This document shows, in pieces, positions 16,751-50,100 of a stretch of 64,000 nucleotides of DNA. Each line of letters opens with the position of its first letter. Position 1 is the first letter of the stretch. Source of the stretch: Apostichopus japonicus. Taxonomy: Eukaryota; Echinodermata; Holothuroidea; Aspidochirotida; Stichopodidae. The notes below the pieces were generated by a model. The model did not search any database. It was not told the origin of the DNA and was given only the letters and a program-made list of their open reading frames with translations. The stretch is from assembly GCF_037975245.1 (NCBI RefSeq), contig NC_092575.1, forward strand, positions 25,159,841-25,223,840, read 5' to 3'. The position numbers were made by a program, and so were the translations under genes.

Positions 16751-16810
<60 letters not shown>

Positions 16811-20164: not shown

Positions 20165-20209
20165 GTTGCCTTACAGAGGTCACGTGAGGAAGTCAGAAAT
20201 GAATTTATG

Positions 20210-20477: not shown

Positions 20478-20516
<39 letters not shown>

Positions 20517-21470: not shown

Positions 21471-21474
21471 AAAA

Positions 21475-22416: not shown

Positions 22417-22486
22417 TGTATGTATGTTTGTATGTGTGTGTATGTGTGTATGTATGGGTATGTACGCGTGTATGTATGTATGTATT
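22417..22486. repeat. TGTATG microsatellite, copy B
   Basis: Shorter counterpart of the array at 8315-8405. Confidence 0.75.
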
Positions 22487-23489: not shown

Positions 23490-23639
23490 ATTTAATTGAT
23501 GGCAACATGAAGTCTTCATATCCATCATGTGCTGATTAATCGATACAACAAGTCTATGATTAAAAACGTTTAAGTTACGACAAAATTTCATTTTTATAAT
23601 TTTTAAATTTTTCAAATAAATTAAAAAACTAATATATAC

Positions 23640-23692
<53 letters not shown>
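23490..23692. repeat. Terminal segment of the GPCR block (third copy) and (TA)n
   Basis: The AATTTAATTGATGGCAACATG segment ends copy B and is followed by (TA)n at 23634-23692. Confidence 0.8.
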
Positions 23693-26600: not shown

Positions 26601-27203
26601 GATCATTCTTAGGGTTGGTAGGTTACTACAGGAAGTTTGTACCAAACTTCGCAGCCGTGGCAGTACCACTGACTAACTGTACGAAGAAAGAGGAACCAAA
26701 CGTGATTAGATGGGGCGAGAGCCAGGAACAGGCGTTCCAAACACTGAAGAGTAAGCTTGCAAGCTCCCCATACTTCAGCTCCCTGACCTCCACAGAGAAT
26801 TTACACAGACGCATCTGATACAGGAGTTGGTGCGATCCTTCTTCAGGAGTTTGCGGGTGAAAAATTTCCAGTAGCCTATGCTAGCAAAAAGCTGAACAAG
26901 AGTCAAATGAGATACTCAGTGATGGAGAGAGAATGTTTGGCCGTAGTCTGGGCTGTACTCAAGTTTGAGCCATATCTCTATGGCAAGGAATTTGTAATAG
27001 AGACAGACCATCAACCATTGACATGCATTCGAAAGTCCAAAGTGGCAAATGGAAGGATAATAAGGTGGGCACTGGCATTACAGCCATATCGTTACCGCAT
27101 CCAAGTGATAAAGGGAGCCGATAATGTAGGGGCTGACTACTTGAGTAGAAGTACAGAAATAATGCAAGCCAATTTCTTATCCTTCATCAGCAAAGAGCTG
27201 TAA
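26597..27203 (+). pseudogene. RT thumb and RNase H of element 2
   Basis: 26597-26818 has the thumb/tether (RSFLGLVGYYRKFVPNFA). 26907-27203 has RNase H (ETDHQPLTCIRKSK and ADYLSRS). A frameshift lies between them near 26800-26820; the skipped region still encodes FTQTHLIQELV-like RNase H start residues. Confidence 0.85.
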
Positions 27204-27498: not shown

Positions 27499-27579
27499 AC
27501 TTTCTGATAGCGACCACTTTCTGATAGCGACAGCTTTGCCAATTGGAAAGGAATCCTTAAGAATGCTTGGTTTGAATTA

Positions 27580-28550
27580 ATGGCTGTGCAAATAAGTATT
27601 TTTCGCAAAACCATTCACGAACTTAGCCAGCAAATTGATTCCAAAACCAGAAAACTGCAAAAAGAACTCCCCAAGAACGAGTTCGAAAGAAATCTTGACT
27701 CCATCTCCAAAATTTGCTTGAACCTCTCACATACCCTAGCTTCAAGACAATGTCACAAAATGAAGAGGGATAATGTCACGTTAAGTCTTCTGGTGAAACC
27801 CAACTTGAAAACTCAAAAAGAACCAGGGGTCGCAGATTCCGCCGGAAAGAGATACAGACCGCATGCAACACCACCAAAAGTGCAGTTGTTACAATTGATT
27901 GCCAACTCACGGCAGGAGAAACAAACCTACTCTCCAAAGGTCTAAATTTTTGCCCTAAACCACGGCAATTTAACGCTCAGAAACTTTCTCTTGACCTAAA
28001 TCTGTTCTATCGACGCTTACGTCTCCGTGAATTTTTGGCCGACGAAAATGGCAATAACACCACGCAACAAACCAACGACTTGCATTCCAATTTTAAGCCA
28101 AAAAGCTCGTGGAATCCACCCAAAGCCCATTGTGCGCCTCTTGAATCATTTATTTCGGCCATTGAAGAGGATGTTAAAACACAGACCTCAGCCCCAGACT
28201 TCCGCGACAATCTCAACAAAGCTGAGAGACAGGCCATTCATGAACTCCGGAAGCGCGATGACATTGTCATCAAGCCAGCCGACAAGGGTTCTGCAATTGT
28301 CGCTATGGGCAAACAATTCTACAGAGAGGAAGCCAACAGACTACTCGGCAACCCTCAACACTACAAACTCCTAGATTCTGATCCTACTCAAGAAATCACA
28401 CCAAACGTGAAAAGAGTCATCCAAAAGATAGTCTCTAACAGTTCCATTGACCGCAAGTTAGGCCAAAACCTCCTGGAAAACGACCCAAAGCCTGGTCGCT
28501 TTTATTTTCTGCCTAAAATCACAAAGAAGGCAATCCCGGGAGGCCCATAA
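27580..28550 (+). pseudogene. Penelope-like RT, N-terminal part
   Basis: Conserved Penelope features appear across two frames joined by a frameshift near 27770: LLSKGLNFCPKP at about 27930-27965 and IVIKPADKGSAIVAM at about 28263-28310, the family's KPADKG signature. The frame fails again near 28540, just before RPIISGNGTATE. Confidence 0.88.
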
Positions 28551-29719
28551 TATCGGGAAATGGTACAGCGACTGAAAATATTTCCAAATTCGTGGATCTC
28601 CTCATCCAACCTCTTGTTTCGGCCCTACCGTCCTATGTGCAGGACACTACGGATTTCATCCGGAAAATTGGGGAAATAAAAAATCTTCCCTTATCTACTC
28701 TGTTAGTAACCTTGGATGTGTCTTCGTTATACACGAATATCCCTAACGAAGAGGGCATTTCGGCCTGCAGAAAAGCATTCAAACCAAAACGTGGCAAAAC
28801 CCCCACGAAGAAAGAATTGGCCGAATTAATGCAACTTATCTTGACCAACAATAATCTGGTATTTGGCAACAAACACTACCTCCAAATTCATGGCACCGCA
28901 ATGGGTACCAAAATGGCACCGTCTTTTGCCAACATCTTTATGGGAAACCTCGAGAAAGAATTTCTATCTCGACAAAACTTGAAACCACACACGTGGTTAC
29001 GTTACATTGACGATATCTTTATGATATGGACCCATGGTGAGGCAAATCTAAAACTCTTCATTGATGACATAAATTCGTTTCATCACACTATCAAATTCAC
29101 TGCTGATTTTTCTGGACATGGCGTTCACTTCCTGGACACCACTGTGACCCTACAAAATGGTTCACTCAAAACAGACTTGTTCAATAAACCCACGAACAAG
29201 CACAACTACCTCTTACCAAGCAGTTGCCATCCACGTCACTGTACCAGAAATATTCCGTACAGTCAAGCGTTGCGCATTCGACGCATTTGCTCCTCTGAAG
29301 TCGATTTTGATTCACGCGCTAAAGAACTGTCACAGCACCTCCTAAACAGACAGTATTTTCGGGGTACTATTGAAAATGCCATCAAAAAGGCTAAAAGCAA
29401 ACCCCGTACCGAAACATTGACGTACAAAACTCGTCAAACCAGTTCCAAAAGGGTACCATTGGTTACTGAATTCCACCCTGGTCTCCCACCACTGGCTAAT
29501 ATTATTCAGAAGAATTTTCACCTACTTCAAGGCACCGAACGCCTGAAATCAGTATTCCCAGAATTACCTGTCATCGCCTTTAAAAGACCCAACAACCTAC
29601 GGGATATCTTAGTTCGGGCAGCCTTTCGGGATGACACCCCATTAGGGGAAAGCAAAACAGAAACTACAGGATCATCGCCCTGTACACAAAATTGCAAAAC
29701 GTGCTTACTTGTCGATTAG
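28541..29719 (+). pseudogene. Penelope-like RT, catalytic part
   Basis: Contains RPIISGNGT, TLDVSSLYTNIPNEEG (motif A Asp), GTAMGTKMAPSFANIFMG (motif B), RYIDDIFMIW (motif C, both Asp kept) and FLDTTV. The catalytic residues are intact but the frame is closed by TAG at 29717-29719. Confidence 0.92.
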
Positions 29720-30139
29720 ACCGGGGCCTTTTAGAGCAACCAAACCAAACGCACGTTCCAAATTCGGCACAAAATTAACTGCCTATCCAAAAATGTCATT
29801 TACCTCATCTACTGCAATATTTGTAACTTACAATACATTGGAGAGTCAAAAAACACTCTTAGAATGAGAATGACACAACATAGATCGGCGATCAAAACAA
29901 AAAAGATCTACCAACCTGTTGCAAATCACTTCAATCTCCAAAATCATTCAATTGAGAATTTGCGTGTTATTGCCATTGACCAGAACGATTCTTGGACAGA
30001 TAAATCTAGGAAAATGAAAGAAAATTTCTGGGAACTAAACCTAAAGACCACGGCACCATTCGGTTTAAACATCAGAAATGATTTGCCGTCCCAGATAAAC
30101 CAAAACAATTCCTTTACAATTACGACGGAATCGGATTAA
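29720..30139 (+). pseudogene. GIY-YIG endonuclease domain of the Penelope-like element
   Basis: In the same frame as RT after two stops, the sequence reads VIYLIYCNICNLQYIGES followed by LRMRMTQHRSAI. This matches the GIY-YIG nuclease core with the paired cysteines usual in Penelope-like elements. It would nick target DNA for priming. It ends at TAA 30137-30139. Confidence 0.85.
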
Positions 30140-30445: not shown

Positions 30446-30522
<77 letters not shown>

Positions 30523-30525
30523 GTT
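30440..30525. repeat. (TA)n array
   Basis: Dinucleotide repeat between the Penelope tail and the LINE-associated segment. Confidence 0.9.
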
Positions 30526-30529
30526 TTTT

Positions 30530-31690
30530 TTTAAATTTATTTATATTTATTAATGCATGTTACCATGGTGACTACACAAACCTTATTCTGTGCATTAGAG
30601 AGTAGTAGCTGATCCCATGTTTAAAGCGACAATTATCATGAAAGGATATTGTATGCTACCGTGCATGTTGTATATGTTACCATATGTATCATAGTAGACA
30701 AGTGGGTCAGCTTCGTAAATATCTTGATAGACTAAAACTGAAAAAAACTTTTTCACGCAGTCCAGTAGGCTTGATTACATAAATTCTTAACTAGCTGATG
30801 CACCTTCTACCCAATTATCTAGACTGCAAAAAATTCAGCACACGGCTGTTCGAAGTGTTCACAGAGCGAATAAATATCCTGTCATTACTCCAATACTGAA
30901 AGAGCTGCATTGGTTACAGATAGGCCTACATCTAGGCATACATTTATAAATCCTCATCCTGGCCTTCCGTGCTATGGCAACTTACTTATGTGATATCTTA
31001 CTTCAAGAAACTAAAAATAGGTCATCTAGATCAAAACATCTTAACCAACTTAATGCTCCAGTGTCTCGTTTGAAAACAATCGGGAATCGCGGCTTTCGTT
31101 ATGCTGCCCTCGTTTGTAAAACTCAATCTCGGTAGATATATTAGGCCTCTGTACTCATTGCAAGGGCGTAGGAACCGGGGGGCTGGGGGGGCGCCAGCCC
31201 CCCCAGTGAAAAATATGGGGGCGGAAGTATCATTCCGCCCCCCCCCCCCGCTTCGCAAGTCAGAAAACCCCTTTTTCATTTCCAAATGAGAAAAAAAATC
31301 TCATTTGGAGCACCAAATTGCATTTAAGGCCAGGTGAAAATGCAAAATTCTTTACAAAATGGAGTGGGAGTTGAAGTGTGCTATATTGCACCAAATTGCA
31401 TCTTAGGCCACCTGGAAATACAAAAAAAATCCAAAGGGGGAGGGGGACACCCCCTCCCCTTAGACCCCTCCCCCAGGCCGGCCATCAGTCTTCAGCCCCC
31501 CCCCCCACTCAAAAGTACCTTCCTACGCCACTGACTCATTGGATCAGGTTAAGCATTGTCTTTAAAGTCATCTTTGTTTCACATTGTTATTATATGTTTT
31601 CTTTTTCTATCTTTCTTTTCTTGTCATCAGCGGTAAAGCGCATTGAGCAACTCGTTGTTGGATTTTGCGCATTATAGGACTAATTATTAT
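30530..31690 (+). mobile_element. CR1/L2-like LINE 3' end, copy 2, with nested MITE
   Basis: Aligns with 16895-17556 and extends to a true 3' end. The translation near 30790-30910 gives LQKIQHTAVRSVHRANKY...ITPILKELHW. The tail reads AAAGCGCATTGAGCAACTCG (31635-31654), then ...GCGCATTATAGGAC and ends in (ATT)n at about 31682-31694, the usual 3' end of such LINEs. A 373-bp MITE is inserted at 31161. Confidence 0.82.
31161..31533. mobile_element. Complete hAT-type MITE nested in LINE, 8-bp target duplication
   Basis: Starts CAAGGGCGTAGGAACCGGG and ends CTTCCTACGCCACTG. It is flanked by ACTCATTG at 31153-31160 and 31534-31541. The uninterrupted site (TACTTATTGGATCAGG) is seen in the LINE copy near 17510. 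Poly(G) and poly(C) tracts lie close inside both ends. No coding capacity. Confidence 0.92.
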
Positions 31691-31694
31691 TATT

Positions 31695-33680
31695 CCTAGT
31701 ACTTTGTTTAACTAACGCTATTGTGCGTTAAAATACGGGTTAAACCAGAGATCTGTGACGGTACTTGGACACTGTACAATAGCTTGGTGTACACTTCTAT
31801 AGAGTAAAACAACTGGAGTAGGCCTAAGTACTTGTCGCGTCAACTAATTATGAATGAAGCAGCCATTTTCCAAAAAGCAACCGGAAGTCGACTAATATAA
31901 GACACCACAGAAAGACTTTTGTAAAAAAAATGTCCAATGCCGTGGAAACACACTTTGTCTTTACCTCACCAAACCTCACATGAAACGGTACATCAGAACG
32001 CCAGCAGTGCCAAAAGGAAAACCAAAACCATAAACATTTCAGTATATTTGGATTCACATACTCAACTCTCAATAACTCGCTCATTAGGAGCAGCTAAATG
32101 GATGTTACCACGTCTCTAAGGATGTGGGATATTTAGTCATATAGGCCTATACGTTCGTGATGAAATTGTTTGGTCAGAAGATCCAGCTACAACCAAATGC
32201 AAAATACCGGATCTATGTCGCTCGCACAAGAGTATAGGTTCAGCCGAACGGCATATTTGTGTCTCTTCGCACATCCTTTGAGATAATCAATGATGCACCT
32301 CCTCCAAGCGGGCAATCAGTTGGAGAACATTTTTGGGCTATAACTCAGTAATACTATGGAGAAGTACATTATAACGGGGACATCTTCAAGAATTCAAATT
32401 TTCTTTTCATTGGACAATTTCAAGATTGATCTAAAGTGTTTCAAGGCTGCATATTAGGGTTGTATTTGATCTAGATATTCGACAGATCACGGTAACCTAT
32501 GGTCACGAAAGCCTACATAAATCGAGCTCTAAAACGATGCCCTATATAGCGTCATGGCCGTCACAAAACATACCTTCCTAGTTAGCGTGTGGACGAGGTA
32601 AACATGCCACAGGAGAGCCATACCAATTACGATATTGATCAGGAAGTTTACACACCCAACGACCTTTTGCTACAAAGCCGACTACGCCGATATAATGTAG
32701 TTCATGAAATACTCCAATCTTTCAGCTCGATGTGCTAAACTGCCATCAAAGACGACAAACAAATAAGACAATTTGTCAAAACAGTGTTTGTTGTTCAACC
32801 ACAATATATATTCGTCACACCTGAGTATAACTGATTGAAAACAGTAGACCAAAAATATTCCTTAATCAGTATGACAAGATATTCCGTTTTGTACATAATT
32901 CCCCTTTACACGCAGAAGAGTAAGTAACAACAAAACTGCAAGAACCCATAAGATCCTCAGATTAAGACCAAACTGACTGTAAATAGTTATAGAAATAGGA
33001 GCAAAGAGGGTTGGGGGGGGGGGGGGTGGCTTACATGCCAAAGTAAACTTGTATCTTAAAATTCAATTTTTATCCAACCTGAGTGAAGAACATCATCGAG
33101 AAAATGGTTATGGATGATATTGAAACTATTGAAATTCGAAATTTTGTAATGAAAAAGTAGACATAAAATATTAACTAGAGCACCAATGGTGCAGAAGCTC
33201 ATACCTTTTCGAGCTGAAAAAATGTAGGGCCCACAAAACCAATTTTGGGCCCATGAGGGATACCCCCCCCCCCCCCCCATCCGTTAGCAGAATCCTGGCC
33301 ACACCACTGGCTATAATTCCTATTTTCCCCCTTTAAATCCTATTTTACCCACTCTCTCAAACAATACCATGCACTGACCTACCCTATTAAACTTTCTCCC
33401 CTCTACCTTAGCAGACATAACTTCACAAGCACTCCCTACAAGACATAACTTCACAAGCTGCCTACATACCTCAGGCTCAAAGACTTCTAAGAATCGGCAA
33501 GTGCTGATTGGCTATAGGGCTCTCATGCTTACAGTTCAACAGTTAATAACAACTCCCAGTCCTGCTTCAATTCCACTTACAGCCTCTGCAGAGCTTAACC
33601 ACAAATGTAAACAAACACTGCAGACACTGGGAGACAAATTAAAGGAGCTTTGGCAAAAAGTGAAGGCTCAGATTTTTTTA
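31695..33680. other. Intergenic, no gene seen
   Basis: Mostly unique AT-rich DNA with a poly(G) tract near 33013 and a poly(C) tract near 33265. 33291-33309 (ATCCTGGCCACACCACTG) looks like the right end of a further MITE, but no left end or target duplication was found. Confidence 0.45.
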
Positions 33681-33689
33681 AACAATGGG

Positions 33690-34345
33690 GATTAATTGTA
33701 ATTAACTTTTGACCAAAATTTTTTAGGCATCACCTTATTCATACACAATCCAACAATCATCAGTTCAACTTTGAATATGATCCATCAAAACCTTGAGGAG
33801 ATTGAGATATTTGAAAATATTACAAAGAATGACCCCCGATGACCTCCTAAATGACATCTGACCTCAATTTTCCGAACACCCCTCGTAACTCTCATCCCGA
33901 GGAACATTGTGACCAAGTTTCATTATAATTGGCCATACACTGTATGAACAGGAGCAATTTGAAAATATAGGGCCGCGGCCCAGGCCACAAAAGACCCCTA
34001 GTTGATCTTTGATCTCAAATTCATGAACACCCTGAAGGTAAAACTACCATAGTACTATCGTGACAAACCCTCAACATTGTACCATGGAATCTGTAGGAGA
34101 AGAAGCATTTTGCGTATTTCCACAAAATAGCCCATTACGGCCCACAGGTGACCTTTGACCCCAAATTTTGGTCCATCTCTGATGGCCCTATACCCAATGG
34201 TCCTTGTGTCCAAGTTTCATGAAATTCCATCAAACACTGTGCGAGTGGGAGCGGTTTTACCAATTGTTGACGGATAGAGTGATAGAGTGATAGACGCCGC
34301 ACTGTAACAATAGCTCACACCAGCATGCTGGTATGAGCTAAAAAT
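33690..34345 (+). repeat. Dispersed repeat tail ending in a palindrome (RTE-like 3' region)
   Basis: Contains phrases typical of marine-invertebrate RTE-type LINE or SINE 3' regions: TGACCTTTGACC, CCAAGTTTCATGAAATTCCAT and a GATAGAGTGATAGA repeat before GACGCCGCAC. It ends in a 30-bp palindrome at 34311-34340 with one mismatched pair, followed by AAAAAT. The class is inferred from general resemblance. Confidence 0.5.
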
Positions 34346-34697
34346 ATTACGATACAAAGTTTCATCGTTTCAGTTTGGTCACACACTTTTACAGAACATA
34401 AATTCTCCATAATGGGGACTCCTGCGATTCTCACTGATTTTCTGCTACCCTTTGGTACCCTCCTACCCCAATGTACTATTCTTAGTTTTTTCCCCACCTC
34501 TCCATCCACCACTGTCCCACCCCAGCAAAGAAATGGCTGCATACGTTTTACCACCAACTAAGGACTTTGGTTAGGTCATTGCTTTGAAATCCTGTTCTAA
34601 TCAAGATTCTTAGCTCTTTTAGAAAAGGTTTTTTTTTAAACAACAATTTAATGGCAGTTTCACTTTAACATGTGACATCAGATGGTTGCTGACAATC
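34346..34697. other. 3' flank of the MULE/SWIM gene, no gene seen
   Basis: Short T-rich and C-rich stretches; no supported reading frame. Confidence 0.45.
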
Positions 34698-34703
34698 TTT
34701 ATT
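34698..34703 (-). terminator. AATAAA overlapping the MULE/SWIM stop codon
   Basis: The minus-strand end of the gene reads GAATAAAGATTG, so the TAA stop lies inside an AATAAA hexamer. If used, the 3' untranslated region would be only a few tens of bases. Confidence 0.4.
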
Positions 34704-37700
34704 CGTATGTTATCACTTCAACGATGAAAGGCTCTGAGTTATTGTCAAGATCAGCCTCATTCACTGAGTTTTCCACATCCTGATCCACAGAAACTCCATG
34801 TCCTGAAGGTTCCTTTGACAATGTACCTTCCATGATAGCAGTTCTCACAAGTTTTTCAGCTTGCTCAGCCATTTTAGCCAGACCACTTAAGGCATCGTGT
34901 TCTACTGAGGTGGTTGGTAATGTCACATTCTGAACATTAGTGACGCATTCTGCAACTGCAGCAATGGCTTGGGACTTGTGGGCTGATGCACCAACATCTA
35001 CGACATAATCAACTTGATGTGTAGCATTGTTGGTTTCCTCATGACATTGTACTGAAGCGATGCCCGTTGATGGAGCGATGTTCTCCATATGAGTCGGTAA
35101 GGTCCTCCTGACATTAGTTCTATCCAGGCTTTTAACTGCACCAAGACCACTACTACTTGCATCAACGTTAGTAGCACTGGCTGTTTCCTCATGATATTGT
35201 ACTGAATTGATGCCTGTTGATGGAGCATTCTGCTCCATACCAGGTGATAAGGTACTCATGATGGCGTTAGTTGCATCCAAGATTTCAATAGCACCAAACT
35301 CACTACTCATTCCATCAGCTTTAACTCTTTTGCTTTCATTCTCTCCATCACATGACGATTCATCTCTACTTTTACGCTTTGTTTGATGGTCGTTCCTTAA
35401 CTTAGTAAATGTCTGCATGGCCTCAACGAGTTGGTCATCTGTCTCATAGTGAGCCCATTGGAGAATAAAACTTCCGAGAGGCTTGACAAACTTACTAGGA
35501 TCTCTCTGAAAGGCCTCCTTCAACCTAGTGAAAAGTTGCTCCAGTTCACTAACAGTGTCCCCCTCAGCTATAGTTGTCAAAAACTTCTTTGAAGTTGCAT
35601 CTGTTACATGCTCAAATTTCCATTTTTTGATGTGAAAATACCGGATGAGGATGTACTGGTGTTTACATGCGCCTCCTGTAATCCCTGAGGGGCAAGAGCA
35701 GAAACCCATATCCATATCTACAAACACCCTTGGCTCATAAGATTTCGGTTTTCTGGGCATACTGAACACTTGAGGCTGCTCTTCAGTAATTAAATCTTTA
35801 CTAAAGTCAGATAGACAATGGATATGTCCATAACGGCCAGTGAGAATCCTTGACAATTTGCCCGCTGCCAAGTCTTCCAAACGATTCTTAAAAAGCCCAT
35901 TAACTCTGGAAAGCACCAAGTCCAAAAGCTGATAGTTGTTTGCTGATTTTAGCTTTTCAAAAGGTCTGTCTTTCAAAACCCGCATAGCATCACATAGATT
36001 ATTTGTGGCATTTATCGGGAGCTTGAAGCCTCCCAAGTCTGCATGGTACAACGCCCAATGCAGGCGACTTTCAAACACCTCTTTAAAGTGAGTGACTACA
36101 AAGCTGTACTTCCAAATCATCGGGTCCTTCATGATACTAGTAAATTTCGTTTGCACTTCATTTTCTGATGAGCAAATAGCGAGTGTTTTCATCTGTTGGA
36201 AGAGATTATACCTGTCGGCATCAGCTATTTGATGTTCCTCACCAAACAAAAACTGCCAAAAGGCTTGAAGAATGTGAAAGATGCACAAGACTTGTTTTGC
36301 AGAAGGATACATCTGGTCGAGAGCTAATCTCTCCTCCTCGGAATTACTGGTCAGAAATACTTGAGGACCCTTTCTGCCTCTTCCATAGTATGCTCCCACG
36401 CCTATTAAATTATGTAACATCTCTAACCCATGCTTTATGGCAACAGTTGAATCAGATCCTACTATTAAACATCCTAATGGTAGTCCTCCGGCAACACTGT
36501 CTGTCAGAAGCAAGATCAACTGAGGTCGACCAGGGCCACAAACAAAGTTGCTTACAAAAACAACTTCTCCTGCAGCAGGAACCATCTTGTGTACTCTCTT
36601 CATCAGTGGGGTGACAAGAGCAATAACATCTTCACCTTCAACATTTTCGGAGCATATGCAAAGCCCATTCTCATTGTTGTATTTTGAGATGCGTTCTTCA
36701 AGCAACTCCTGTACCTTTCGCCGACTCAAACTCTTGGTATCTTTTCGAAATATGTCATAGTATAATCTGAAATCATGAAAAGGAGTGAACATATCGACAG
36801 AAAGTTTCACCGTTGAGCATGAAAAGATGGCTGGCTGCATTATCAGTTCATTTCTTGCTGAAAAGGAGGGTGCAATCATCTGATAATGAATGCAATAACC
36901 TTTGATGACCAGATCACACAGGTGTTTCTTACCCCACAGGACAATAGCTCATCTCATTCTAGGAGAAATGCTAGCTTCAGCAACTACCTAAGTTACATTT
37001 GAAAAACATATGTATGGTTGTACATTATTTTATGGCCAGTGTGAACGAGCTCAAACCTTTACTAGTAGGTGACTAATTGCAAACATGAGTGATATAAACT
37101 AAAAGCTCCCCTCCTTCTCCTCCACCCCCCCCCCTCCAAAAAAAAACAAGTCCAGATGGTATTAACATAAAATATGGTCATTTTATTGAACTTCACCTGT
37201 AACAAAACTGAGCATCTGGACAAAAATGTCGATCGGAAACCACCTTGTCGCACTCTTCTCCATATTCCTCGGCTAGGTCACGCTTGTGAATTTTCAAGGC
37301 TTCCGTGACTGAGTGTCCATCTTGAAACAGTTTGATAAATTTCATTTTGACCGCGTGAGACACATCCCTGTGACTGAGAATGTTGGGGTCATCAATAGCA
37401 TGGTTGTGGCTGCCGGTAAAAGTAATTGTTGTGGGCCAGTCGGGCAAATGTGAATCTGTAGATCTAGAAGATCATACATTAAAGTTAAAGACATTCCAAA
37501 ATATGCAATTTCATTATAATGCACTGAGAAGTTGTTGTACTTGACATAAACTTAAGATGCTTTTTTCTTCACATCTGACTTTCTGGGCTTAATATGAGTT
37601 AAGGCAACATGATCTATTTTCAAAGCCTGTAGAGCATTACCTGAAATATAACACTGCATTGTGGTCTTTTGTATGCACAGTAAAGTGCGATATTTCATAT

Positions 37701-40700
37701 TCCTATTTCTTATCTTCCTAAGGGTATAATACAAAGCTGCATATAGGTTTCTTGTCACCGTCGGACCATGTAAAATGCATTTTTATCAGTTTTGAAGACA
37801 ACATGATGTGCATCTTGACCAAAATGTCTTGTTGACTGTACCCCAGTAACTAGCTTAAAGATGTACGTTTCATCTGAAAGTACTTAAGTTATTAGGGCCG
37901 TCTACAGTAGTATTTGTGTTGCTGTCAAACACACCATGGTGGTATCATTTTTAGAATAAAGCACTAGACATTTATTTTGGAATTCATCTTTAGCAAAAAT
38001 ATAAGACATTTAATTTGGGATTCATCTGTAAAAAGGATCAGTAGACATTTAAGTAATAACTGCCATTATCTGCAGACTGAAGATATTTCTTGGTAAGAGC
38101 TTCCTTTGAAGATTTGTCTAACAGCCATGGTACGGTAGTTAAACATCGATTTTTAATTTCTTTAATGTTTCATCGGCAGAGTTCCAGAGCTTGTCTAACA
38201 CTTGTACAAGAATATCACCTGTCAGATGATGAGGTTTTGGTGTTGTTAAACACAGACAAGCCAAACACTCTTGACTTAGGTAGTTATGAGAGTTAAATTT
38301 CTTGAGAAAGTTTTGATCCATGATGGTAGATAAATTCATGAATTGACATAAAAATAGTTTTTAACAAAGAGGGTCCACAGAACATGTTGGTACTTTCATA
38401 TCGACTTTATCAAAACATGACACTTTCTGTTTTCTGTAATAAATTCATCCTTAAGTTCATATCCAAGGCAAAACAATCCATTTCCCTTTGCCTTGTGTTA
38501 CGTGCCGACTTAAAACTTGAGTATCCTCTTCCATCTCCTCAACGGACTGAATCCTCTTCAGGAATGCCGTGTCTTACGTTGACTATTTTCAATTCAGTAT
38601 TGACTTGACTAGCATGTTCATTGTAAATGTATCAAAGGATGAAACTAGATCATAACGAATACAACATATGAACAGCATTTGACTAACCTGCACTTTCTTA
38701 TGTGTCCTGTGTTCCCCCTGCGATAAAATAGTTTCTTGACACGGATATTGAGAAAAGCAGGGCAGCCTGTGTTTTTGGTTCTGCGACCTCCTGATGGCTC
38801 CGCCTTCACCCTTGTATTGTGATGGCACATCCTTTCCAGCTGCAGAGAGCAACATATGTTGGCAACAACATATCGTCACATGTTACATTATTGAACAAGT
38901 CACACTGTTAGTTGTTTACAGCAATGTATATGGAGCTCCCTCCCTGTTGAAATTAAGTCTTTAGATTCTATTATTCAATTCAAGCGCTGTCTTAAAACTC
39001 TCCGTTTCTCTCAACTCTATTAGTGTTTGTGCATTCAGCACCCGTAAAGCGCATTGAATAACTTTTGTTGGAGTCTGCGCTATATAAGACTAGTTATTAT
39101 TATTATATATGGGTCATTCCATATCACATCACCAGATTATGAAGTGATTTGACATGGAATGACTCATACGCCATTGCTTTAAGTACCGACTGTACTTTGT
39201 TATTCAAATGACTTTGGGCTTCCATTTAAAAAAAATACAAAAAGACAAATGAGAGTACAATGGTTGCACTCTGTATAGTTCCAAAGTCTCTCAAAACATT
39301 ATTTTTGCAAGTAACTCTTGTGTTTCATATTTCCATCATCGACCAGTCTTAATTTTAAATTTTGATCATTGATAACCACCATAAAAAGCAGGGTTTTCCT
39401 AATCACTCTGGTGGATTTTTTCTTCTTTTCAGTCACTCTGGTGGGCTTATAAATACCAATACCTTTTGCCAACATTTCTTTTTAGTGATATGATATTTTA
39501 AGAGTTAAACCTACTGACTACCAGTAACATTTGACCACAGCTAGGACAGATCTCTATACTTATCTCATCTCACTGCATGTAATGTATAGGGGGAGATGAG
39601 ATATTCTACTTCACCCCACATCAGAAATGTGAAAAGGGTGTCGCAAACTCCTCCCAGACCGCAAGTCCCATCAAGTTTACTATTTGTATTTTTATTTTCG
39701 AGTTCAAACTTGGTGGGTATGAAACCTTGTGCCTGCATGATTGATGACATCAGACAGTAGGTCAAGGGCAGAGGTCGAAAAACCTAAAACTTGCTTTGGA
39801 ATCATTTTCTGCTTGTCAACATGTAGTATAAAGCCATACGAGATGTAAAGAACGATTAGACAAATTTTGTGTTTGGATGTCAAGGGTAGGTTGAGAGGAT
39901 AAACCTGTTTCTGCGTGATTGATGACATCATATAGGTCTAAGGACAGATGTCATAAAACCTAAAAAACTTCTGCTTGTCAACGTGTAGGAAAATGCTTAA
40001 ACCACAAGATATGTAGAGAATGATGAGACTATTTACTAGAATATTCCTTTTTGGAGGTTGAGGGTTAGGTTGAAAGGACCATATAGATCAGAGGTGGAAT
40101 TGGCCCAACTTTGATGTCTTGCATGAAACAACATTGATGGTTAGGTATTTATCATTTACTACTAAACTTTAATCTAAACTATACCTAAAAGAACTGGATT
40201 CCAGCCTTTTAACAAAGATAGCAAGCAGATCTATGCGTTCAGAAGTAACCTAACATTCACTTCCATCATGGAGGATATATGAGATCTGCAACACCAGGGG
40301 TTGCCATCTTGTTCACTTTTCAGACGTGTTACCATATTCTAAAAGACTATAGGGCATTGTGTTATTTACTGTTTAGTTAAAATTATGCATCAAACTGTGA
40401 AAACTTAATCATGATGGTATAATTTATCAACTTTTTAAGTCACTTGTTCTGCAACTTTACTAATGTTTACGACAGCAGTACGGACACATCTTTCATGAAT
40501 CAGAACTTTGACAAGGAATAAACACAAAGGACTAACATGGGCAATTTAAACAACCATATATAAAGAATTAGGAATGATATACTACAGCACTGCTATGAAT
40601 TTATGGTTTACTGTACCTAAGAAGTGTCATTGCTTGTGAACATTTGTTTACAATATTACTATGTGAAAATTAAGGCCATACAACTATGCAACATTAGTCC

Positions 40701-40971
40701 TGCCACATTACCACAGATATACGGTAGAGAGTATTCAATCTACCCTACACAAAAGTATGACTATTCTCACCCGGCATAACAGTTTTCTGCCAGTATTAGG
40801 ATAGGTACACCTTGTTCTCCACGTAGTCCGAGAGAGCTTCTGGTACTGTTTCAGCCAGCTCTTTGCATCCTTCTCTCTCGTTATCTTCAACCTGAGGGTA
40901 GCTTGATAACGATCTGTGTCACCTATCAATAGTTCACACAAGGAGTACTCATATTCAGGAGGCAAGGTTTT
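34699..40971 (-). CDS. MULE-transposase-like protein with FAR1-like zinc cluster and SWIM finger
   Basis: Spliced minus-strand gene with four resolved exons: 40971-40771, 38839-38688, 37463-37197 and 36766-34699. They total 2688 nt (895 aa plus stop) and keep one frame across junctions of phase 0, 2 and 2, with GT/AG at each. A start-codon exon upstream was not found. In order: an N-terminal FAR1/WRKY-like zinc cluster (SWLKQYQKLS, CHHNTR, KNTGCPA, GSHNHAID) built from exons 1-3; CPDAQFCYRLYYDIF at the exon 3/4 join; a MULE transposase core; a SWIM finger (C-x-C-x8-C-x-H at 35700-35659, CSCPSGITGGACKH); and a low-complexity C-tail with an internal repeat (APSTGI). The two expected catalytic aspartates are replaced (VFVSN at about 36552 and FLTSN at about 36348). 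It is therefore probably a DNA-binding, non-catalytic, host-adopted transposase. The alternative is a recent transposon remnant. Confidence 0.8.
36767..38687 (-). other. Introns between exons 2-3 and 3-4 of the MULE/SWIM gene
   Basis: Intron 37464-38687 and intron 36767-37196, on either side of exon 3. The exon 3 acceptor that keeps the frame is CTTCTAG before 37463; a nearby CTACAG would shift it. The exon 4 acceptor GATTTCAG before 36766 is preferred to upstream AGs because it gives the contiguous family motif FCYRLYYDIF. No other gene seen. Confidence 0.6.
38890..39110 (+). mobile_element. LINE 3' end in the MULE/SWIM intron
   Basis: The plus-strand translation gives LWSSLPVEIKS-like and FKRCLKTLRFS residues. 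The tail AAAGCGCATTGAATAACTTT then ATATAAGACTAG is followed by (ATT)n. It is a CR1/L2-type 3' fragment related to but distinct from the one at 31.6 kb. A hairpin with TCATTCCAT/ATGGAATGA arms follows at 39114-39170. Confidence 0.7.
39720..40075. repeat. Imperfect tandem duplication (about 180 bp) in the intron
   Basis: Two blocks share TGATTGATGACATCA, then AAAACCTAAAA, then CTGCTTGTCAACRTGTAG (39739-39830 and 39917-39990). The remainder of the 38840-40770 intron shows no gene. Confidence 0.65.
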
Positions 40972-41039
40972 CTGTAAGAAATGAAAAATGAAATGGTTGA
41001 AAACAGTATATGGCACTGACAAACAAACATTCAGTTAGT

Positions 41040-41665
41040 CACACTAAGTAAGTAACTTTATAACTTTATTATATCCCAGAGGGAAATTGCATGCTGGCAT
41101 AATATACATTTTTAAAAGAGTAAGAGTTCAACATGTAAAAGGATAAATTTACAAATAGAATAAAGGAAAACTACTGTAGTTGACAAGTAAGATAGTTAAA
41201 ATTGTCAAACATGAAAATGCACAGCCCAAGCCAAAACAGATATATACAAGAATAGAAAGAGCCTAACGAATGAAAAGGTTGTTATAAAGCCTAATGCACT
41301 GTGGAATAAAAGATGACTTGTGTCTGTTAGTGGCAGCATATAGGAGTCTCATCCGTCCACTATGAGGAATTACTACCCCGGCAAGATCTGCATATAGGGG
41401 ATGGGTATTGTCCGCAAGTACTGCATTAAGTTTAACTTGAAGAAGACTTTGGTAGGATGAGTCAACCGTTGGCTGATTTTCTCCTAATATACGGCTAGCT
41501 TGTTTAATAATTGTGTCGATACGTTTTTTATCTTCTCAGCCCATGTTCCCACCCCAGCAAAAAATACAATATAACCACACACTGCTAATGACAGAATTAT
41601 GAAACAGGTCTTGAGGAATGGAGGAAAAGCCTACTAAAATTCACAGACAAGCACATATATCCCTT
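41040..41665 (-). mobile_element. Non-LTR retrotransposon 3' fragment (minus strand)
   Basis: The minus-strand translation from about 41620 gives LFHNSVISSVWLYC, CWGGNMG (then a stop), KKRIDTIIKQASRILG, HPLYADL, HSGRMRLLYA and RHKSSFIPQCIRLYN. This is the characteristic C-terminal end of a LINE RT ORF. A 3' UTR follows, ending TTTCCCTCTGGGATATAATAAAGTTATAAAGTTA near 41045. One internal stop and truncation make it inactive. Confidence 0.78.
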
Positions 41666-41669
41666 TTGC

Positions 41670-43680
41670 CAACGAAAACAATATCTGTAACAAGAAGGAC
41701 CACTTCTTGCGTTATATTCTGCCAGTCTAAGACACTGTAAACTGCGGAAATCAGTAATAACAATTATAACTGGAATTTAAATTTGAATCAGTAAACAACA
41801 AGACATAGGCCTCGAACAACAGAGCAACAGAGCTCGAACAATACGGTCATACTGCAAGAATGCTCATTGCATGCATTACGTTGACATTTTAACAACATTT
41901 TTACAAATCAGACAGTTGTTATATTGTTTAGAACTGACTTTTTCTTTGTCAACTGGTAAGAAACCTGTGCTGTAAGAAAGAAACTTTCCTGGTTATGTTT
42001 TGGACCTGTACATGAAACAAGGTTATAATCCAATCATCAAATATGGTAAAAGTTAAACCAAAAGCATCATGCCAGCGGCACTATCTGACTATGCCACTGC
42101 AATATTTGTGCTTTTAACTGTCACCACTCGAGTTAGGAGGTTAGAACAAAACCGATGGCACACTATCATTGTAAAAAACTAGTGCTTACAGTGCATAAAT
42201 GTGGGCAAACATTATGAAATCAAAGAAGAGCAGCTAACTTTGTTAGCAACAAATGCGACATAATAGCACTACATAAGCTGATACTGGGAAAATGTTTTTT
42301 TTTTATGTTGTCCCACGGTTCTACTTTTTGATTGCCCAAATAGCAAACTTGGTTTTCACAAAGTGAGGCAAAATAAAAAAGGACCAACATAACAATGGTC
42401 CAACATGTAGACTATAGGAGAATATTTGTTTTGGTGAATAGCATACTAGCTCTGGTCCAGTCCCCTTTCCCTAGAACTGGCAGTTCATAGGCTTACCACT
42501 CTTTTTGTATTATTTCAGTATCTCCAATGTTGTTGCGGGCAATACCGATTTATCAGTTTACCTAGGCTATTTAACAGTATTAAGCTATATATATGTATCT
42601 AAATTTAATGTACAGTACTTTGGTATGCTGCTTATTAACTAAAAGAACAACCTAACCATTTTAGTATTTGGGGGTTATATGTACAGTAAACAACTAGTCG
42701 ACCTCCAGATGACCTGCAAAGCTGACTTTGGTGGTCCAAATTGTGATAGCAATGAGATGGTGCAATCATTCAGTTTTATTGGTTTTTATGCAACTGTCCT
42801 ACAACTCCTGACTGTCCAAGATCTTTCGGCTTGACCGTAGCTAGCGATGTATTCAGCCCTTAAGTGCCTGATGCTGCATTATTACTACTTGTAATTTCCT
42901 GTACATAGACCTCAGCAATAACTTGTGCTGTATAAAACATAGGCCTACAGTACTGCACAGATTTCCATGGATGGCTTCATACATATTTCATGTCAGCTCC
43001 TACTCCTAGCTTTAATACTTCATTATTGAGTTACAAGTCTATGTTAAAAACAGTATATGAAAACGAAATAAGAGCCTGCTAAGTGCTAGGCTAGGCCTAA
43101 GTTAGGCCTAGGCCCTACTAGTATAGTGAAGGCTTCATAATTGATGCACCTCTGTAATTGACACACCTCCTAATATTCCTAGTTATCACTGTGGCAACCA
43201 TATGTGACAATGAAATTTGATCCATTTTAAAGCATTTTACACACTTCCCCCACACTTTACCCCCACATTTTACACACTTCACTGTTGCAAATATTTTTCG
43301 CATTTGGATATCTTACTCTCTACCTCCCTCAAGGTGAATCCACTACTCTGTGAGAACGATCCGCCTGCTACATATTGGCATGTATAATTTATGAGTAATA
43401 TGGCCTATTCTATTCTGTCGTCAGTCAGCTGTTTACCGTTCAACGAAATTTAAATATTTCTTAGTAGAAGGGACAACAAAAAACTTATGGTTTGATTGTT
43501 ATACACAGATTACTGTTCTCTTAGTCTATTGTTTGTTTTGTTGTTAAGGGAGGTGAGTCGATGTAGGTGGAGTACAGGTAGGTACAGGGTAGATTATTTT
43601 CTTAAGATTTCCTGACTGACTTCCAGAATGGCTTCCCCCACAAAAACAAGCTGCTCCCACCCCCCCCCCCCCAAAAAACA
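41670..43680. other. Intergenic or upstream region, no gene seen
   Basis: AT-rich unique DNA with TAGGCCTA words near 43090. The 5' end of the MULE/SWIM gene may lie here, but I could not identify its first exon. A poly(C) tract occurs at 43660-43674. Confidence 0.4.
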
Positions 43681-43689
43681 AATATTAAA

Positions 43690-44785
43690 AATTTGAGGTT
43701 TAAAATTCCCAAATCGGTAACAAAAAGAGATGCCCTTAAACTCACATGTATAATTTTTTTTATGAAGGGGAAATGCTATCGTTTGTACGATAACAAGTCT
43801 ATGAAGAGGGCCTTTAACTTGGTCAGGAAATTCATTTGTCCAAGTTTTTATCAAACCGAGCTTCCGAGGAACATATGCTCCTATTATATGATGGACACTC
43901 GTCACACATTTCCATGGAGTTAATTGATTACGCCCATTACAGAAACATAATCCTTTTTGTACTCCCCCCTCACACTAGCCATATTCTACAGCTCGTGGAT
44001 GTTACCATGTTTGGACCTTTAAAAACTTTTTATCACCAGGAGTGTCAAAAGTTCATGCGAGAAAATCCTCGGCAAGGTATCACATTTGTAAACTTATTTC
44101 CAAAGCCTTTCTGAAGTCTTTCACCCCAGTAAATTTAGTTACTTCCTTTTGAATGACAGGTATATACCCAGTTGAGCCTGGTGTAGTCAGTAAACTGCAT
44201 TTCATCCCTGCAGAACCTCTTAATGTGGCTGTTCAAAACAAAAGCCAAAGCAAAATAGCTGTCGACACAAATCACTCAAGAGATGATGACAGATTGGACA
44301 CTTTCCTAAGGGACAAGATTTCAACTCCCAAACCACCTATAAACACAAAAAAGAAAGTATAAAAATAGGCCAGGAGGTGTAGCAATCACCGAAGATAGAG
44401 TTGTTCTTAAAATCAGAAAAGTCATAGAAGAGTCCAAAGGCCCATCAAACACATCAGCCAATCGTGATCACTCAAAGGAATCCCCAAAACCAGGAGAAAG
44501 TAACAAGTCACCTTGGGGGAAACATCCAGAAAACCATCTCAACCCCAGAATGACTCTGATTCCAGTCAGGAATGTACTGTAGCAATGATGTATAACTGTG
44601 TTTGTAAGAGGTTCTCTCCTCCAACTTTGAAGGATTTTCCTAGAAAGGAAGTTAAGTTTGTAAACTGGGCACAATGTGAACACTGCACTCATTGGACACA
44701 TTTAGAGTTTTGTATCCCTGATACAAAGGAGAGCCTTGAGAATGGAAAGAACTTCTTATGCCCCAATTGTCTCCAGGAAGAATAA
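43690..44785 (+). pseudogene. Pogo/Tigger-type DDE transposase pseudogene with PHD-like tail
   Basis: The C-terminal half of a DDE_1 transposase: LLLYDGHSSHISMELID with a catalytic Asp, LFVLPPHTSHILQLVDV and MFGPLKTFYHQECQKF at about 43880-44050. After a frameshift near 44100 and a TGA at 44150 come TGIYPVEPGVVS (44156-44191) and ITEDRVVLKI near 44390. It ends with a PHD-like cysteine cluster C-x2-C-x2-W-x-H-x3-C...C-x2-C (about 44670-44775). The N-terminal HTH half is absent. It would cut and paste a DNA transposon if intact; here it is dead. Confidence 0.82.
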
Positions 44786-44789
44786 GAAG

Positions 44790-45775
44790 ACATTATTTAT
44801 TTTCTTATAGTTTTTATATTTTCAAGAAAGACTGATTATACTCCTTTAAGATGAAAGTTCATCAACCTTTCGTGACCTCTCTGTGACCTGACTTGTCTGA
44901 TTCGAGGTGAGAGGCTCAGAGCTTGGTGAACAGCGTACAAAGTCAATGGATGCACGCACACAGTAAGCTATGGACAAATGTGTCAGTTACACCGTATTCA
45001 CAGACTTCACAAGCCAGACTTCTTCGGGTCAGATTCTTTTCAACTGTACGTTTTGTGGGAACAGCTGAATAAATATTTTGGGGTTATTTTATTTTTGAGA
45101 TACTATACATCTGAAAATCGTATACAAGTGAGTGTTTTGGGGTTTTCCTTAAATAGATATCGTTCATCAAATCCTTAAGTGTGCCAATTACGAGCCCACC
45201 ATGGTACTATTTACCCTGACTGTACAACTACTACTACTACAGTACTAGCATTCATGATATGCAGTACCCTCCAGGCTCCAAAGTCAACTAGGCTATTGTG
45301 TTTCATGCTGATAGATTCTTAGCACCAGTCTAAATCTCTGACTTAGGCATAGTACTCAGGGAAAGTTACACTTACTCTGTAGTCTTGGCTACGCTATACT
45401 TAAATGGTTGCAATACAGTTTGGCAGGGCCTTCGCAGGGGCTATTGCCTAGACAAACTGGCCTAGGCCTACAGTAGCTTATGCAAGGACTAACGTAGACT
45501 AGGCCTAGACCTAATTGGGTTAAACGCTAGCAATGTTCTCCATTACTACATTAGAGCTAGTTTGGCAGTATGTGTGAAACCTTTAATTCTGTCAATTCTA
45601 TAGAATCTTCGTCTACTTTGGAAGAACTCGGGCATTTTGTACAAAGTGAGATTTTTGCTTCCATCGCTATTCTCCTCTATGATCCAAATTTCAGCCACTG
45701 ATGCGCAGAGATTTTGGTACATTGGATCGCATGGGGCGCGAAGCAGGCCAAAAGCTTGATCACTTACTATTATAG
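44790..45775. other. Intergenic, no gene seen
   Basis: Unique sequence rich in AGGCCTA words around 45450-45510. No supported frame. Confidence 0.45.
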
Positions 45776-45779
45776 ATAT

Positions 45780-46080
45780 GGAAGGCGGAAAGGGTCAACG
45801 TGAGGCGCCGTCCACTTAGAGATGGTCGTTCACCCAGAAACAGTTCACTTAGAGATCGCTGCTCAAATGCAAGCAGCCGCCCACTTAGAAATTGTCGTTT
45901 AACGTGAGGCGCCGTCCACTCAGAGATAGTCGTTCACTCAGAGACCGTCTACTCAGAGATCGTTACTCAAATGCAAGCAGCCGCCCATTTTGAAATCGCC
46001 GTTGAAGTACAGAAACCGTTCATTCAGAAATGGCCGTTGACTCAGAAATCGACAAATCGTCCACTCAGAAATATATATTT
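45780..46080. repeat. Minisatellite of CACTYAGARAT units
   Basis: A short unit of the form CGTYCACTYAGARAT is repeated throughout. A higher-order period of about 104 bp is visible: AACGTGAGGCGCCGTCCACT occurs at 45798 and 45902, and CTCAAATGCAAGCAGCCGCC at 45864 and 45968. Confidence 0.8.
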
Positions 46081-46182
46081 GGCTTCCATATACAGGCTGT
46101 GCAGTTACAGGCCTATATATGATGTAACACGAACACCTGAAATGCAATGAAACAGTTATTGTCAAATTTAAATGACAATAAT

Positions 46183-46857
46183 TCAGGGACGAGTATGGGT
46201 ATTTAGTCTTGGACTAGTATCTTTATCTGTGCTAGATTTCCAATCTGACTCTAGTACGGGAACCTCAGTAGTATGAATCTATTCGGATTGATACCACACG
46301 ACTCTGCTATAATGTTATGTAAGAGGAAGTACGCAAAGAAATAAGCAGAATTTATGAATCTGAACGATTTGACAAATAAAAATACTCCACCGGTTCCATC
46401 GATCAGCTATCTTCATGTTTGTGAATAGTTCATTGTTTCTATACAATATACTTACAAACAGTTGTGACAACGTTCTTATGCTTATATCACTCTATACTGT
46501 CCCCCTACATCATGCTTCACAGCACTTGTACTGACAGTATGAACAGTTCCTCATCTTTATCTGATTCTAATGGTAGTACCACTCTAGACTGTACTATAAT
46601 ATCATGCTTCACAGCACTCGTACTAACAGTATAAACAGTTCCTAATCTTGATCTGATTATAATGCTGACCTTACTCAATACGTCTCTCCTCCTACATCAT
46701 GCTCCGCAACACTCGTACTGACAGTATTAACAGTTCCAAACCTTTATCTGATAGAAATATTTCATTTAATGCTCATGATGTCGATACGAGTGCTTAGAAT
46801 CGGGACCTGAAATTACAATATACAACACAATTGTAACAGCTGAGCACAACTTACAAA
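46183..46857. repeat. Left arm of a large inverted repeat
   Basis: Reverse-complement match to 47880-48473. The outer edge is TCAGGGACGAG and the inner edge GAGCACAACTTACAAA. It contains three tandem units of about 80-90 bp (from about 46487, 46565 and 46665), each with CATCATGCT(T/C)C...CACTYGTACT and ACAGTTCC. Confidence 0.9.
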
Positions 46858-46892
46858 GGCGATTTCTATTTACAAGTCATCTGTCCCACGTG

Positions 46893-46902
46893 GCTATATA
46901 TG
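46893..46902 (+). promoter_or_regulatory. TATA-like element upstream of the DUF4430 gene
   Basis: CTATATATGA lies about 240 bp before the start codon at 47140, just inside the loop of the inverted repeat. Transcription start not determined. Confidence 0.3.
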
Positions 46903-47139
46903 AGGTATCATGGTCTCAGTCTATGCGCAAGTTCAACCCCACGGATGAGAAAGTGACCAGATGTTTGTAGAGGGGCAAACACAACTCAAGATAAGCTACT
47001 CCATTGTCTGTTATCTGTCAAAGAGCTCAGACTACTTTACTAAGCTGTAATAATTTTCTGCGCATGAACACTAATACGTTTACTGATGAAGCCAACACGT
47101 GTAATACCGGTCCATTACGTTCTTTGCTGTTCTACGAAG

Positions 47140-50100
47140 ATGAAGTACTCTTGCCTTGTGTTCATTCTCCTCTCTGCAGTCGTTTTAACTAATGGAGCAT
47201 TTTGTGGTAAGTGGTTGTACGATTTAGGCCTATATCTGTAATATCGATCGACATGAACAGTGTAAAACAAACCCTTTAGATCGATATCGGCCAATTTGAA
47301 AGAGCATTTTCTCAACATACGTGTTTTTATAATTCTAACCCATGGGGCCGATGTTAGAAAGAAAATCACGTGGCTTCATTATCTTTCCCTTTCATGTTCC
47401 TCTAACAAAATTAGTGCTGAATCATCATGATATGCTATTTTAAGATGAAAAGCAATTGTTCACAATGCACCACGTCTGTCCCTCCCGCCCACCTCACTTG
47501 GGCCGGATATAACTTCAAGTCAAGGCACTGAGCACTCCATACTTACAGAATTAAACTTTACATATATTAAAGACTAAATAATCTACAGTATTTAATTACA
47601 GATATGCCTGCATTAAACACATGCACAATGTTCTAAGCATAAACATAACATATGCTTAAAAGACATAAAAATTGTTTGCTGATGTACAGACTGATATACG
47701 CCATATATACATAAATTATACATAAATGATACAACAATTAGCTTTAACTCACAGAAGAGATTACTCAATTTTCCTTTCTTTCGATTCATCAAAATCCGGT
47801 TGAAAAAGAGTTTACTTATTTGAAAATCTGCGGAAAACACCGGCTTAACGTGATGACTCTATAGTATATAAAGATCACATTTGTAAGTTGTGCTCAGTTG
47901 TTACAATGGTTTGTATATTGTAATTTCACGTCCCGATTCTAAGCACAATGTCATGTATCGACACCATGAGCATTAAATGAATTATTTCTATCAGAAAAAG
48001 GTTTGGAACTATACATACTGTCAGTACAAGTGTTGTGTAGCTGATGTAGAAGGAGAGTATTGAGTGATATCTGCATTATAATCAGATAAATCTTAGGAAC
48101 TGTTCATACTGTTAGTACGAGTGCTGTGAAGCATAATAAATGAGGACAGTATAGAGTGATATAAGCATTGGAAAGTTGTCACAACTGTTTGTAAGTAAAT
48201 TGTATAGAAACAATGAATGATTCACAAACATGAAGATAGCGCTGTTCGATGGAACTGGTGGAGTATTTTTATTTGTCAAATCGTTCAGATTCATAAATTT
48301 TGCTTATTTCTTTGTGATTAGTACTTCCTCTTACATTATATTCTAGCATAGTCGTGTGGTCCTCAATCCGAATATATTCATATACTACTGAGGTACCCGT
48401 ACTAGAGGCAGATTGGAAATCTAGCACAGATAAAGATACTAGTCTAAGACTAATTACCTATCCTCGTCCCTGAGTCTTGTACCGAGAGAAATTCTAAGTG
48501 TACTAGTATCCATGTTGGTGTAATCACACTTATGGTGTTGTACTCATGGTGTTGTACTCGTTCTCTTGGTGTTGTAATCGCACTCACGGTGTTGTAATCG
48601 ACTCACGGTGATGTACTCGTGCTCACAGTGTTGTACTCATACTCATGTTGTTGTATTGTACTCCTTTCGTTGTACTCGTACTCACGGTGTCGTACTTTGC
48701 ACTCGTGGTGTTGTAATCGCACCGTGGTGTTGTTATCGTACTCATATTGTTGTACTTGTACTCATGGTGTTGTACTCGTATTTCTGCTGTTGTACCCGTA
48801 CTCATGCTTTTGTACTCGTACTCATGTTGTTTTACTCACACGCATGGTGTTGTACTCGTACTCATAGTGTTGTACTCATGCATCTGTTGTTGTACCCGTT
48901 CTACAAGTCTTGAAGTTTACATTGAATATGTTCTCGTTCTTTCGTTCGTCAGGTGACCCAGCTCCGAACTATCCAGAGATCACTCCTGATACGGTATTAC
49001 ATACATATTTCCTCTCAGTGACCAGTCTAGGCGAGGAGCCTTTTCATGGGGTCGATCTACTACCAGTTATGGCCCCAGTTAACGCATCTGTCACTCAGAT
49101 AATGTTACTTGCCCAAGAATACACACGGGGAGACTTTTGGTAGGCGACGACGTTAACATTGCAGATCTCCAAAATTTCAAATATTAATATTTCATTGTCA
49201 AATTAATATACGGGCGCTCCGTTAAGTTAGTTTATCCACCAGTGATTACGCATAGAACAACAAGAATTATAACTATCATAATAGTAAAGCGATCACCGAT
49301 ATTTATGATTTAGACACCCTTTTATTAGTAGAGCCATTCTATAACAATTGTCATCGCTTCCATTGTACTTGCAGGTTCGAATCACACTATGACCCAACAT
49401 ACGGTACCTTAGTGTCCGGCATCAATGGCTTGTACAATAATTACCCTTGGTATTGGTTTCTCTACGATATTATGGAAGATGGCATGACTGCATGTGGTAA
49501 GAAACTCTCCCAATATCTTCTGATATACAAAGTGAGGGAAGAAGGTGGGGTAAGAGGGACGGGCCGGGAAGGGGAGGGGGACGGGTAGAAGTATTTATAA
49601 ATATACATTAAGCATATTCAATCTAATATTTCGTTTAGAATATTGTAGACGAACCAAATTATCATGGCAGAACAACATGGATACCTAAAGGCCTACATAA
49701 GTAAAACCTTCTCGCGCAACTACTACCACTACTAGTATTATATGTCACGTCGTTGTATTCATACCACAGTTCACCTGTAGGTACCAATTTCGGGTGTTCC
49801 AGTGCATGATAATGAAGTTACAGTGTAATTCTTCACCTAAAAGAATCAGAGAAGGGGTTTAGAAATGAAAGGTTAGGCTCCGTTGATATGACGGAATTTT
49901 ATCTTGACATGGTAAAATAGATATATATAGCGACTTAATTGCTACCTCCACCGTGAAAGTTTTAGCCTTTCATAGAAACTGGCAACCATAGAAAACGTGT
50001 CACCAGCTCCAGGGCTTCTTGAAAAAAATCGATCACTGTGGGATTTTGTTAAACTTGACTAGTTAGTCTGTATTATTTCCAAATTGTTTTTCTCATTTTG

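Follow-up and report, generated by a model that had tools for sequence, protein, structure and literature searches.

We analysed a window of 64,000 nucleotides from the holothurian Apostichopus japonicus (RefSeq assembly GCF_037975245.1, contig NC_092575.1, positions 25,159,841 to 25,223,840; all positions below count from its first letter), located on contig C15 of the 671.6 Mb genome, and in it a minus-strand gene at 34699..40971 that descends from a MULE transposase. The gene has an unbroken reading frame across four exons and keeps the putative zinc ligands of its DNA-binding modules, and the residues at all three positions of the catalytic triad have been lost. As judged from the sequence, it is probably a host gene: an exapted, immobile animal MULE transposase that acts as a DNA-binding protein.

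The gene model consists of the following exons:

40771..40971, minus strand: exon 1 of the first-pass model, 201 nt, the N-terminal part ahead of the zinc cluster
38688..38839, minus strand: exon 2, 152 nt, carrying the zinc-cluster cysteines C72 and C93
37197..37463, minus strand: exon 3, 267 nt, carrying the zinc-cluster histidines H137 and H139
34699..36766, minus strand: exon 4, 2068 nt, with the MULE core, the SWIM finger, a C-terminal tail with an internal repeat, and the stop codon

Joined at GT/AG borders, the exons yield 2688 nt, that is 895 codons and a stop codon, with zero internal stops, which confirms the four-exon frame proposed in the first-pass annotation of this DNA. Exon 4 lies inside a stop-to-stop frame of 749 codons and shows strong codon periodicity (chi2 82.9), exon 3 shows some (17.1), and the introns and flanks give values of 5-11. 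Exon 1 of the model has no ATG and is preceded by a splice acceptor (TTTCTTACAG/AAAACC, the slash marking the junction), and is hence really an internal exon; a splice acceptor was also read by eye at the matching place in the two relatives L012 and L009. The model therefore lacks at least one 5' exon. The internal repeat in the C-terminal tail (35021-35323, minus strand) has a length of about 150 bp and an identity of 75%. In the presumed intron upstream of exon 1 there is an open reading frame (ORF; 41263-41535, minus strand) that by eye resembles the end of a non-LTR (long terminal repeat) reverse transcriptase.

Descent from the MULE transposase superfamily can be regarded as secure on the grounds of sequence comparison, because relatives from the same genome that match the protein exceed the Pfam cut-offs for both MULE and SWIM. 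The protein itself scores below the MULE cut-off (20.6-22.4 bits; cut-off 27.6), and for SWIM a trimmed piece lies just over the cut-off (20.0 bits; cut-off 19.6) and the exon 4 ORF below it (17.7 bits). The best protein match, L012 on contig C17 (31% identity, E 3e-57), and L013 (E 3e-47) reach 33.2 and 33.7 bits for MULE and 26.6 and 27.2 bits for SWIM, respectively. The domain composition given in the first-pass annotation is thus supported for the MULE core (via the relatives) and for the SWIM finger (in the trimmed piece); for the FAR1-like zinc cluster the profile match is not significant, and its four ligands have counterparts in L012. A PDB sequence search with the protein returned no meaningful match (E 0.45 or worse), and a protein scan and a motif scan of viral contigs gave no match.

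The catalytic sites were placed by motif alignment, following the triad of the mosquito MULE Muta1 (D214, D283 and E419), of which alanine at any one position abolished transposition (PMC5225508). These sites and the other motifs of exon 4 are:

36550..36552, minus strand: first catalytic Asp site, Ser279 (AGC) or, if aligned otherwise, an Asp codon lost immediately ahead of it
36346..36348, minus strand: second catalytic Asp site, Ser347 (AGT)
35989..35991, minus strand: catalytic Glu site, Asp466, with an adjacent codon lost (CDAMR vs CEAAMR)
36274..36285, minus strand: CxxH motif between the second Asp and the Glu, C368 and H371 kept
35659..35700, minus strand: SWIM zinc finger CxC...CxH, with C563, C565, C574 and H576 kept

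The motifs VFVSN (aa 276-280) and FLTSN (aa 344-348), which the first-pass annotation had placed at the first two aspartate sites, are indeed present there. Where the relatives are readable, they keep the first Asp in seven out of eight cases (with N in the remaining one), the second Asp in all 14 and the Glu in all 10, versus S, S and D in this gene. At the first site most alignments place a gap opposite the aspartate of the relatives, and an acidic residue is absent under either alignment. Two base changes separate the AGT codon of Ser347 from an Asp codon. At the first site there has been either a two-base change or the loss of a codon, and the Glu site also lost a codon. The residue comparison covers the relatives other than L001-L008, which represent other MULE types (only L001 matched the protein, at E 0.001, with a limit of 0.001), and other than L015/L016, which are the gene itself and a fragment of it in the window. 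Since L012/L025/L027 and L009/L010/L011/L028 are near copies, the number of independent lineages is lower than 14. The zinc-cluster codons start at 38827 (C72), 38764 (C93), 37408 (H137) and 37402 (H139); all four ligands have counterparts in L012, where the exon corresponding to exon 2 holds both cysteines, and a counterpart of exon 3 is present in both L012 and L025.

With only the best candidates scored, the genome contains at least 38 MULE matches, at least 27 matches to the Pfam model PF21056 and at least 34 matches to the protein, five of which are its own exons and fragment and the other 29 of which occur at at least 18 loci (26-41% identity). We fetched 24 loci of nine kb, eight of which match the protein of the gene, and read 14 of the 18 relative loci (all but C17:25.29M, C17:24.48M, C17:19.05M and C6:12.35M). 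Stops are present in eight of the nine matches that span at least 200 aa, and the ninth, L013, is frameshifted at the start of exon 4 (its exons 1-3 were not found within 9 kb around it). Among the family members found, the gene is the only one with an unbroken frame across exons 1-4. L009, L010, L011 and L028 form one family on contigs C15, C10 and C11 with an identity of around 91-96%, L011 and L028 being nearly identical. In a tree of the core made of 14 sequences (L040 was too short to be included) the gene sits on the longest terminal branch (0.77), and its grouping with L036, L037 and L039, all of which keep the second aspartate, is weak (0.88).

Two arguments of the first-pass annotation do not carry over. 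The introns had been taken as a sign of domestication, but in L012, a relative whose exon 4 contains a stop, the introns occupy the same three positions and phases (by eye), and so introns come with the family; Muta1, too, is encoded by two exons (PMC5225508). We therefore discarded the introns as an argument. The broken transposons nearby in the window, which had been set against the intact frame, provide no evidence either way.

A DNA search with exon 4 across the genome recovered only exon 4 itself and one fragment of 383 bp in the window:

17555-17937, minus strand: partial copy of exon 4, 98.2% identical to 34824-35206, frame open, five silent and two replacement differences

This type of search passes over very common words. 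With the rest of the gene as query, 63 matches were listed, namely the gene itself and 62 matches within intron 1 (converted positions 39560-40322 and 38924-39113) that represent dispersed repeats; 40 of 788 candidates were scored, and the unscored ones could include copies of exons 1-3. The protein search, which did include exons 1-3, showed no copy closer than the relatives described above among the matches listed. Inverted repeats above chance were absent from the flanks (30500-34698 vs 40972-50000), as the best pair was matched by 9 of 40 shuffles. In the region of 31-47 kb there are 50 short inverted pairs (25 displayed, 34 nt or less), a number that comes with no chance control. In a self comparison of the relatives L009, L010, L028, L012, L027 and L013 no inverted pairs longer than 60 nt were found at E 1e-5, a procedure that would miss shorter repeats or ends outside the 9 kb, and consequently there is no positive control for the ends of the element. 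The outcome that according to the first-pass annotation would speak against a host gene, namely numerous near-identical copies with inverted repeats on either side, was looked for and not found. The change at the third acidic site, the 98% copy of part of exon 4 and the missing 5' exon are additions to that annotation.

The fragment has edges that resemble splice sites (an acceptor-like T-rich tract followed by TTTCAG and a donor-like AAAG/GTAGAA) and that enclose an in-phase unit of 375 nt (17558-17932), and it may represent a captured exon. It adjoins the edge of a segmental duplication, at a distance of about 60 bp, and on its other side 16800-17554, where parts of 30449-31580 recur.

The comparison of the gene with the fragment also gives an indication of selection. 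The seven differences, five silent and two replacement, correspond to a ratio of replacement to silent change (dN/dS) of 0.12, and the probability of two or fewer replacements out of seven without selection is 0.009-0.023. This small, significant silent excess, confined to the tail and to seven differences, would fit the selection that the first-pass annotation had suggested; part of it may be older, either allelic or accumulated between functional copies. As expected of decay, the relatives L009 and L010 (dN/dS 1.18) and L009 and L011/L028 (1.45) show no such excess and carry stops; for L012 vs L025 the value is 1.12, based on five changes. In an unconstrained frame of the length of the gene 111 new stops would be expected per substitution per site, and the chance of zero stops at 5% divergence is then 0.004.

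Taken together, the data suggest a scenario in which the ancestral enzyme lost catalysis and retained its DNA-binding modules. The resulting protein would be unable to cut or move DNA. It would bind DNA via the N-terminal zinc cluster and the SWIM finger, for which the RNase-H-like core, now dead, would serve as a scaffold, and may act as a sequence-specific regulator in the way of the plant FHY3/FAR1 proteins, by analogy with which we infer a regulatory role. A Lys/Arg-rich stretch after the SWIM region (KRK...KRVK, by reading) could function as a nuclear signal.

Several observations weigh against this reading. The codon periodicity of exon 1 (chi2 7.5) and exon 2 (5.5), both of which are short, is indistinguishable from that of non-coding DNA. 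No start codon or 5' exon was located: a search of 41-47 kb at a donor score of at least 7 gave zero candidates, and one of 41-52 kb at a score of at least 6 gave 16 weak candidates, none of which was distinguished. The FAR1 model (PF03101) scores 11.0 bits (E 0.75), far under its cut-off of 28.1, and since the similarity is not significant, DNA binding is deduced from the aligned ligands. The single-sequence AlphaFold model has a mean pLDDT of 39.5, too poor for a fold search or for confirmation of the active site, which is why the placement of the catalytic sites rests on the motif alignment. The selection test involves seven differences only, in the C-terminal tail rather than in the core, and these may partly be old allelic variation, because the fragment, which would be expected to drift, also looks constrained. 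Moreover, a dN/dS of 0.58 is found for L012 vs L027, both of which have stops (two stops in the comparison), and one of 0.07, with silent sites saturated, for L012 vs L013, which fits lineages that were functional at their split; in view of these low values, a low dN/dS alone would also fit an earlier mobile life.

The most serious competing explanation is that the gene is the relic of a recently dead MULE that has no host function and by chance no stop yet. The failure to find a 5' exon, the decaying state of the related transposons in the genome and the possibility that a low dN/dS is inherited from a mobile past (as in the value of 0.07 for L012/L013) would all be compatible with such a relic. 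However, the active site has changed in three separate places, with a two-base change at Ser347 and a lost codon at the Glu site, and unconstrained drift of that extent should have brought stops elsewhere in the frame (the calculation given above); the silent excess relative to the fragment and the lack of a further copy of exon 4 beyond that fragment also speak against a recent relic. We consider this explanation unlikely, though it has a real share of the probability. A dead transposase might also have been retained as a repressor, one that by binding to related MULEs at their ends would block the active enzymes in a dominant negative manner. Retention of DNA-binding ligands with loss of catalysis is what such a repressor would display, and the related elements examined over long stretches are broken, which would be in keeping with silencing in the past. 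Yet these relatives are just 26-41% identical to the protein, which makes a shared recognition of ends doubtful, and decay is the normal outcome for transposons anyway, so that we find a repressor improbable. The more specific proposal that the dead transposase was kept as a trans-acting repressor of its own MULE lineage, and that the broken state of the relatives is partly its doing, is in our view quite improbable.

It is very improbable that the gene is a still mobile element that uses other residues or an enzyme supplied in trans. Some MULE groups do lack terminal inverted repeats (PMC6446971), and hence the missing repeats are not decisive, but exon 4 has no second copy beyond the 383-bp fragment and the inverted repeats in the flanks do not rise above those of shuffled sequences (9 of 40 reach the best score). 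We likewise give little credence to the gene being an ordinary member of the ZSWIM1/ZSWIM3 family. The two share a MULE-like core of the RNase-H type and a SWIM finger, L012 scores 17.5 bits against the model PF21056 (cut-off 27.2), and L036 on contig C20, which is near the gene in the tree, scores 28.2 bits. Nevertheless, the gene is not among the at least 27 matches to PF21056 in the genome (E<=0.001; the highest, on contig C8, at 127.6 bits), and a scan of a core piece at E up to 10 gave no match to that model. We rejected the ZSWIM1/ZSWIM3 identity for its absence from these listed matches, even though L036 just passes the model. L036 itself (G000:C20:16141900-16143300) is a possible bridge between the animal MULEs and ZSWIM1/ZSWIM3.

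The remainder of the window contains various other elements. A segmental duplication (4086-9979 and 18000-23691, around 82-94% identical in pieces) carries in each duplicate an ORF for a rhodopsin-type receptor (5324-6379 and 19130-20170, both minus strand). The reverse transcriptase ORFs at 27511-30139 (plus strand; RVT_1 43 bits for 28517-29719) belong to what we take to be a Penelope-like element; the segment 30449-31580, parts of which recur next to the fragment, lies downstream of them. Broken LTR-type retroelements were recognised, largely by ORF reading, at 11003-15767 (minus strand) and 24944-27203 (plus strand); within the former, 11995-13209 (minus strand) scores over the cut-off for PF22938 and under it for rve.

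Transposases tamed by their hosts have repeatedly given rise to DNA-binding proteins, and those derived from MULEs have been much studied in plants and are sparsely documented in animals. The genome described here displays both sides of the process, i.e. broken relatives in which the triad is kept and an unbroken frame in which all three residues are lost, and because both sit in one genome, domestication is directly testable with transcripts and orthologues. The proteins of the plant FHY3/FAR1 family combine an N-terminal zinc cluster, a MULE core and a SWIM finger. The gene has a MULE origin in common with this family, but it belongs to a separate, animal lineage, its FAR1 match is not significant and its function is putative. 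ZSWIM1 and ZSWIM3 carry a SWIM finger as well, and the name of the Pfam entry PF21056 assigns them an RNase-H-like core. The animal MULE transposases of the Phantom and Muta type are also comparable: Phantom elements may carry FLYWCH or SWIM fingers (PMC6446971), and Muta1, an active mosquito MULE, is multi-exon like the gene and has the D, D, E triad and long terminal repeats (PMC5225508). Unlike Muta1, the gene is without the D, D, E triad, and terminal repeats were not found in its flanks. PGBD5 (PMC3902484), a domesticated piggyBac gene, resembles it in being a transposase-derived gene with introns; it differs in belonging to another transposase superfamily, and the title of the paper states an age and a neural expression for PGBD5.

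In the literature search we recognised no description of this particular gene, which is a weak negative. The first-pass annotation had called the gene undescribed, and this is right in part, as animal 'FHY3' factors derived from MULEs were reported in 2023, with 23 of them in Table 1 and Branchiostoma among the animals named (PMC10027918). That report conveys the same idea of MULE transposases that have turned into DNA-binding proteins; in its main text the word 'catalytic' occurs 0 times, and the loss of the active site seems not to be discussed there. Accordingly, the holothurian gene is a further candidate among the MULE-derived factors of animals rather than something of a new kind.

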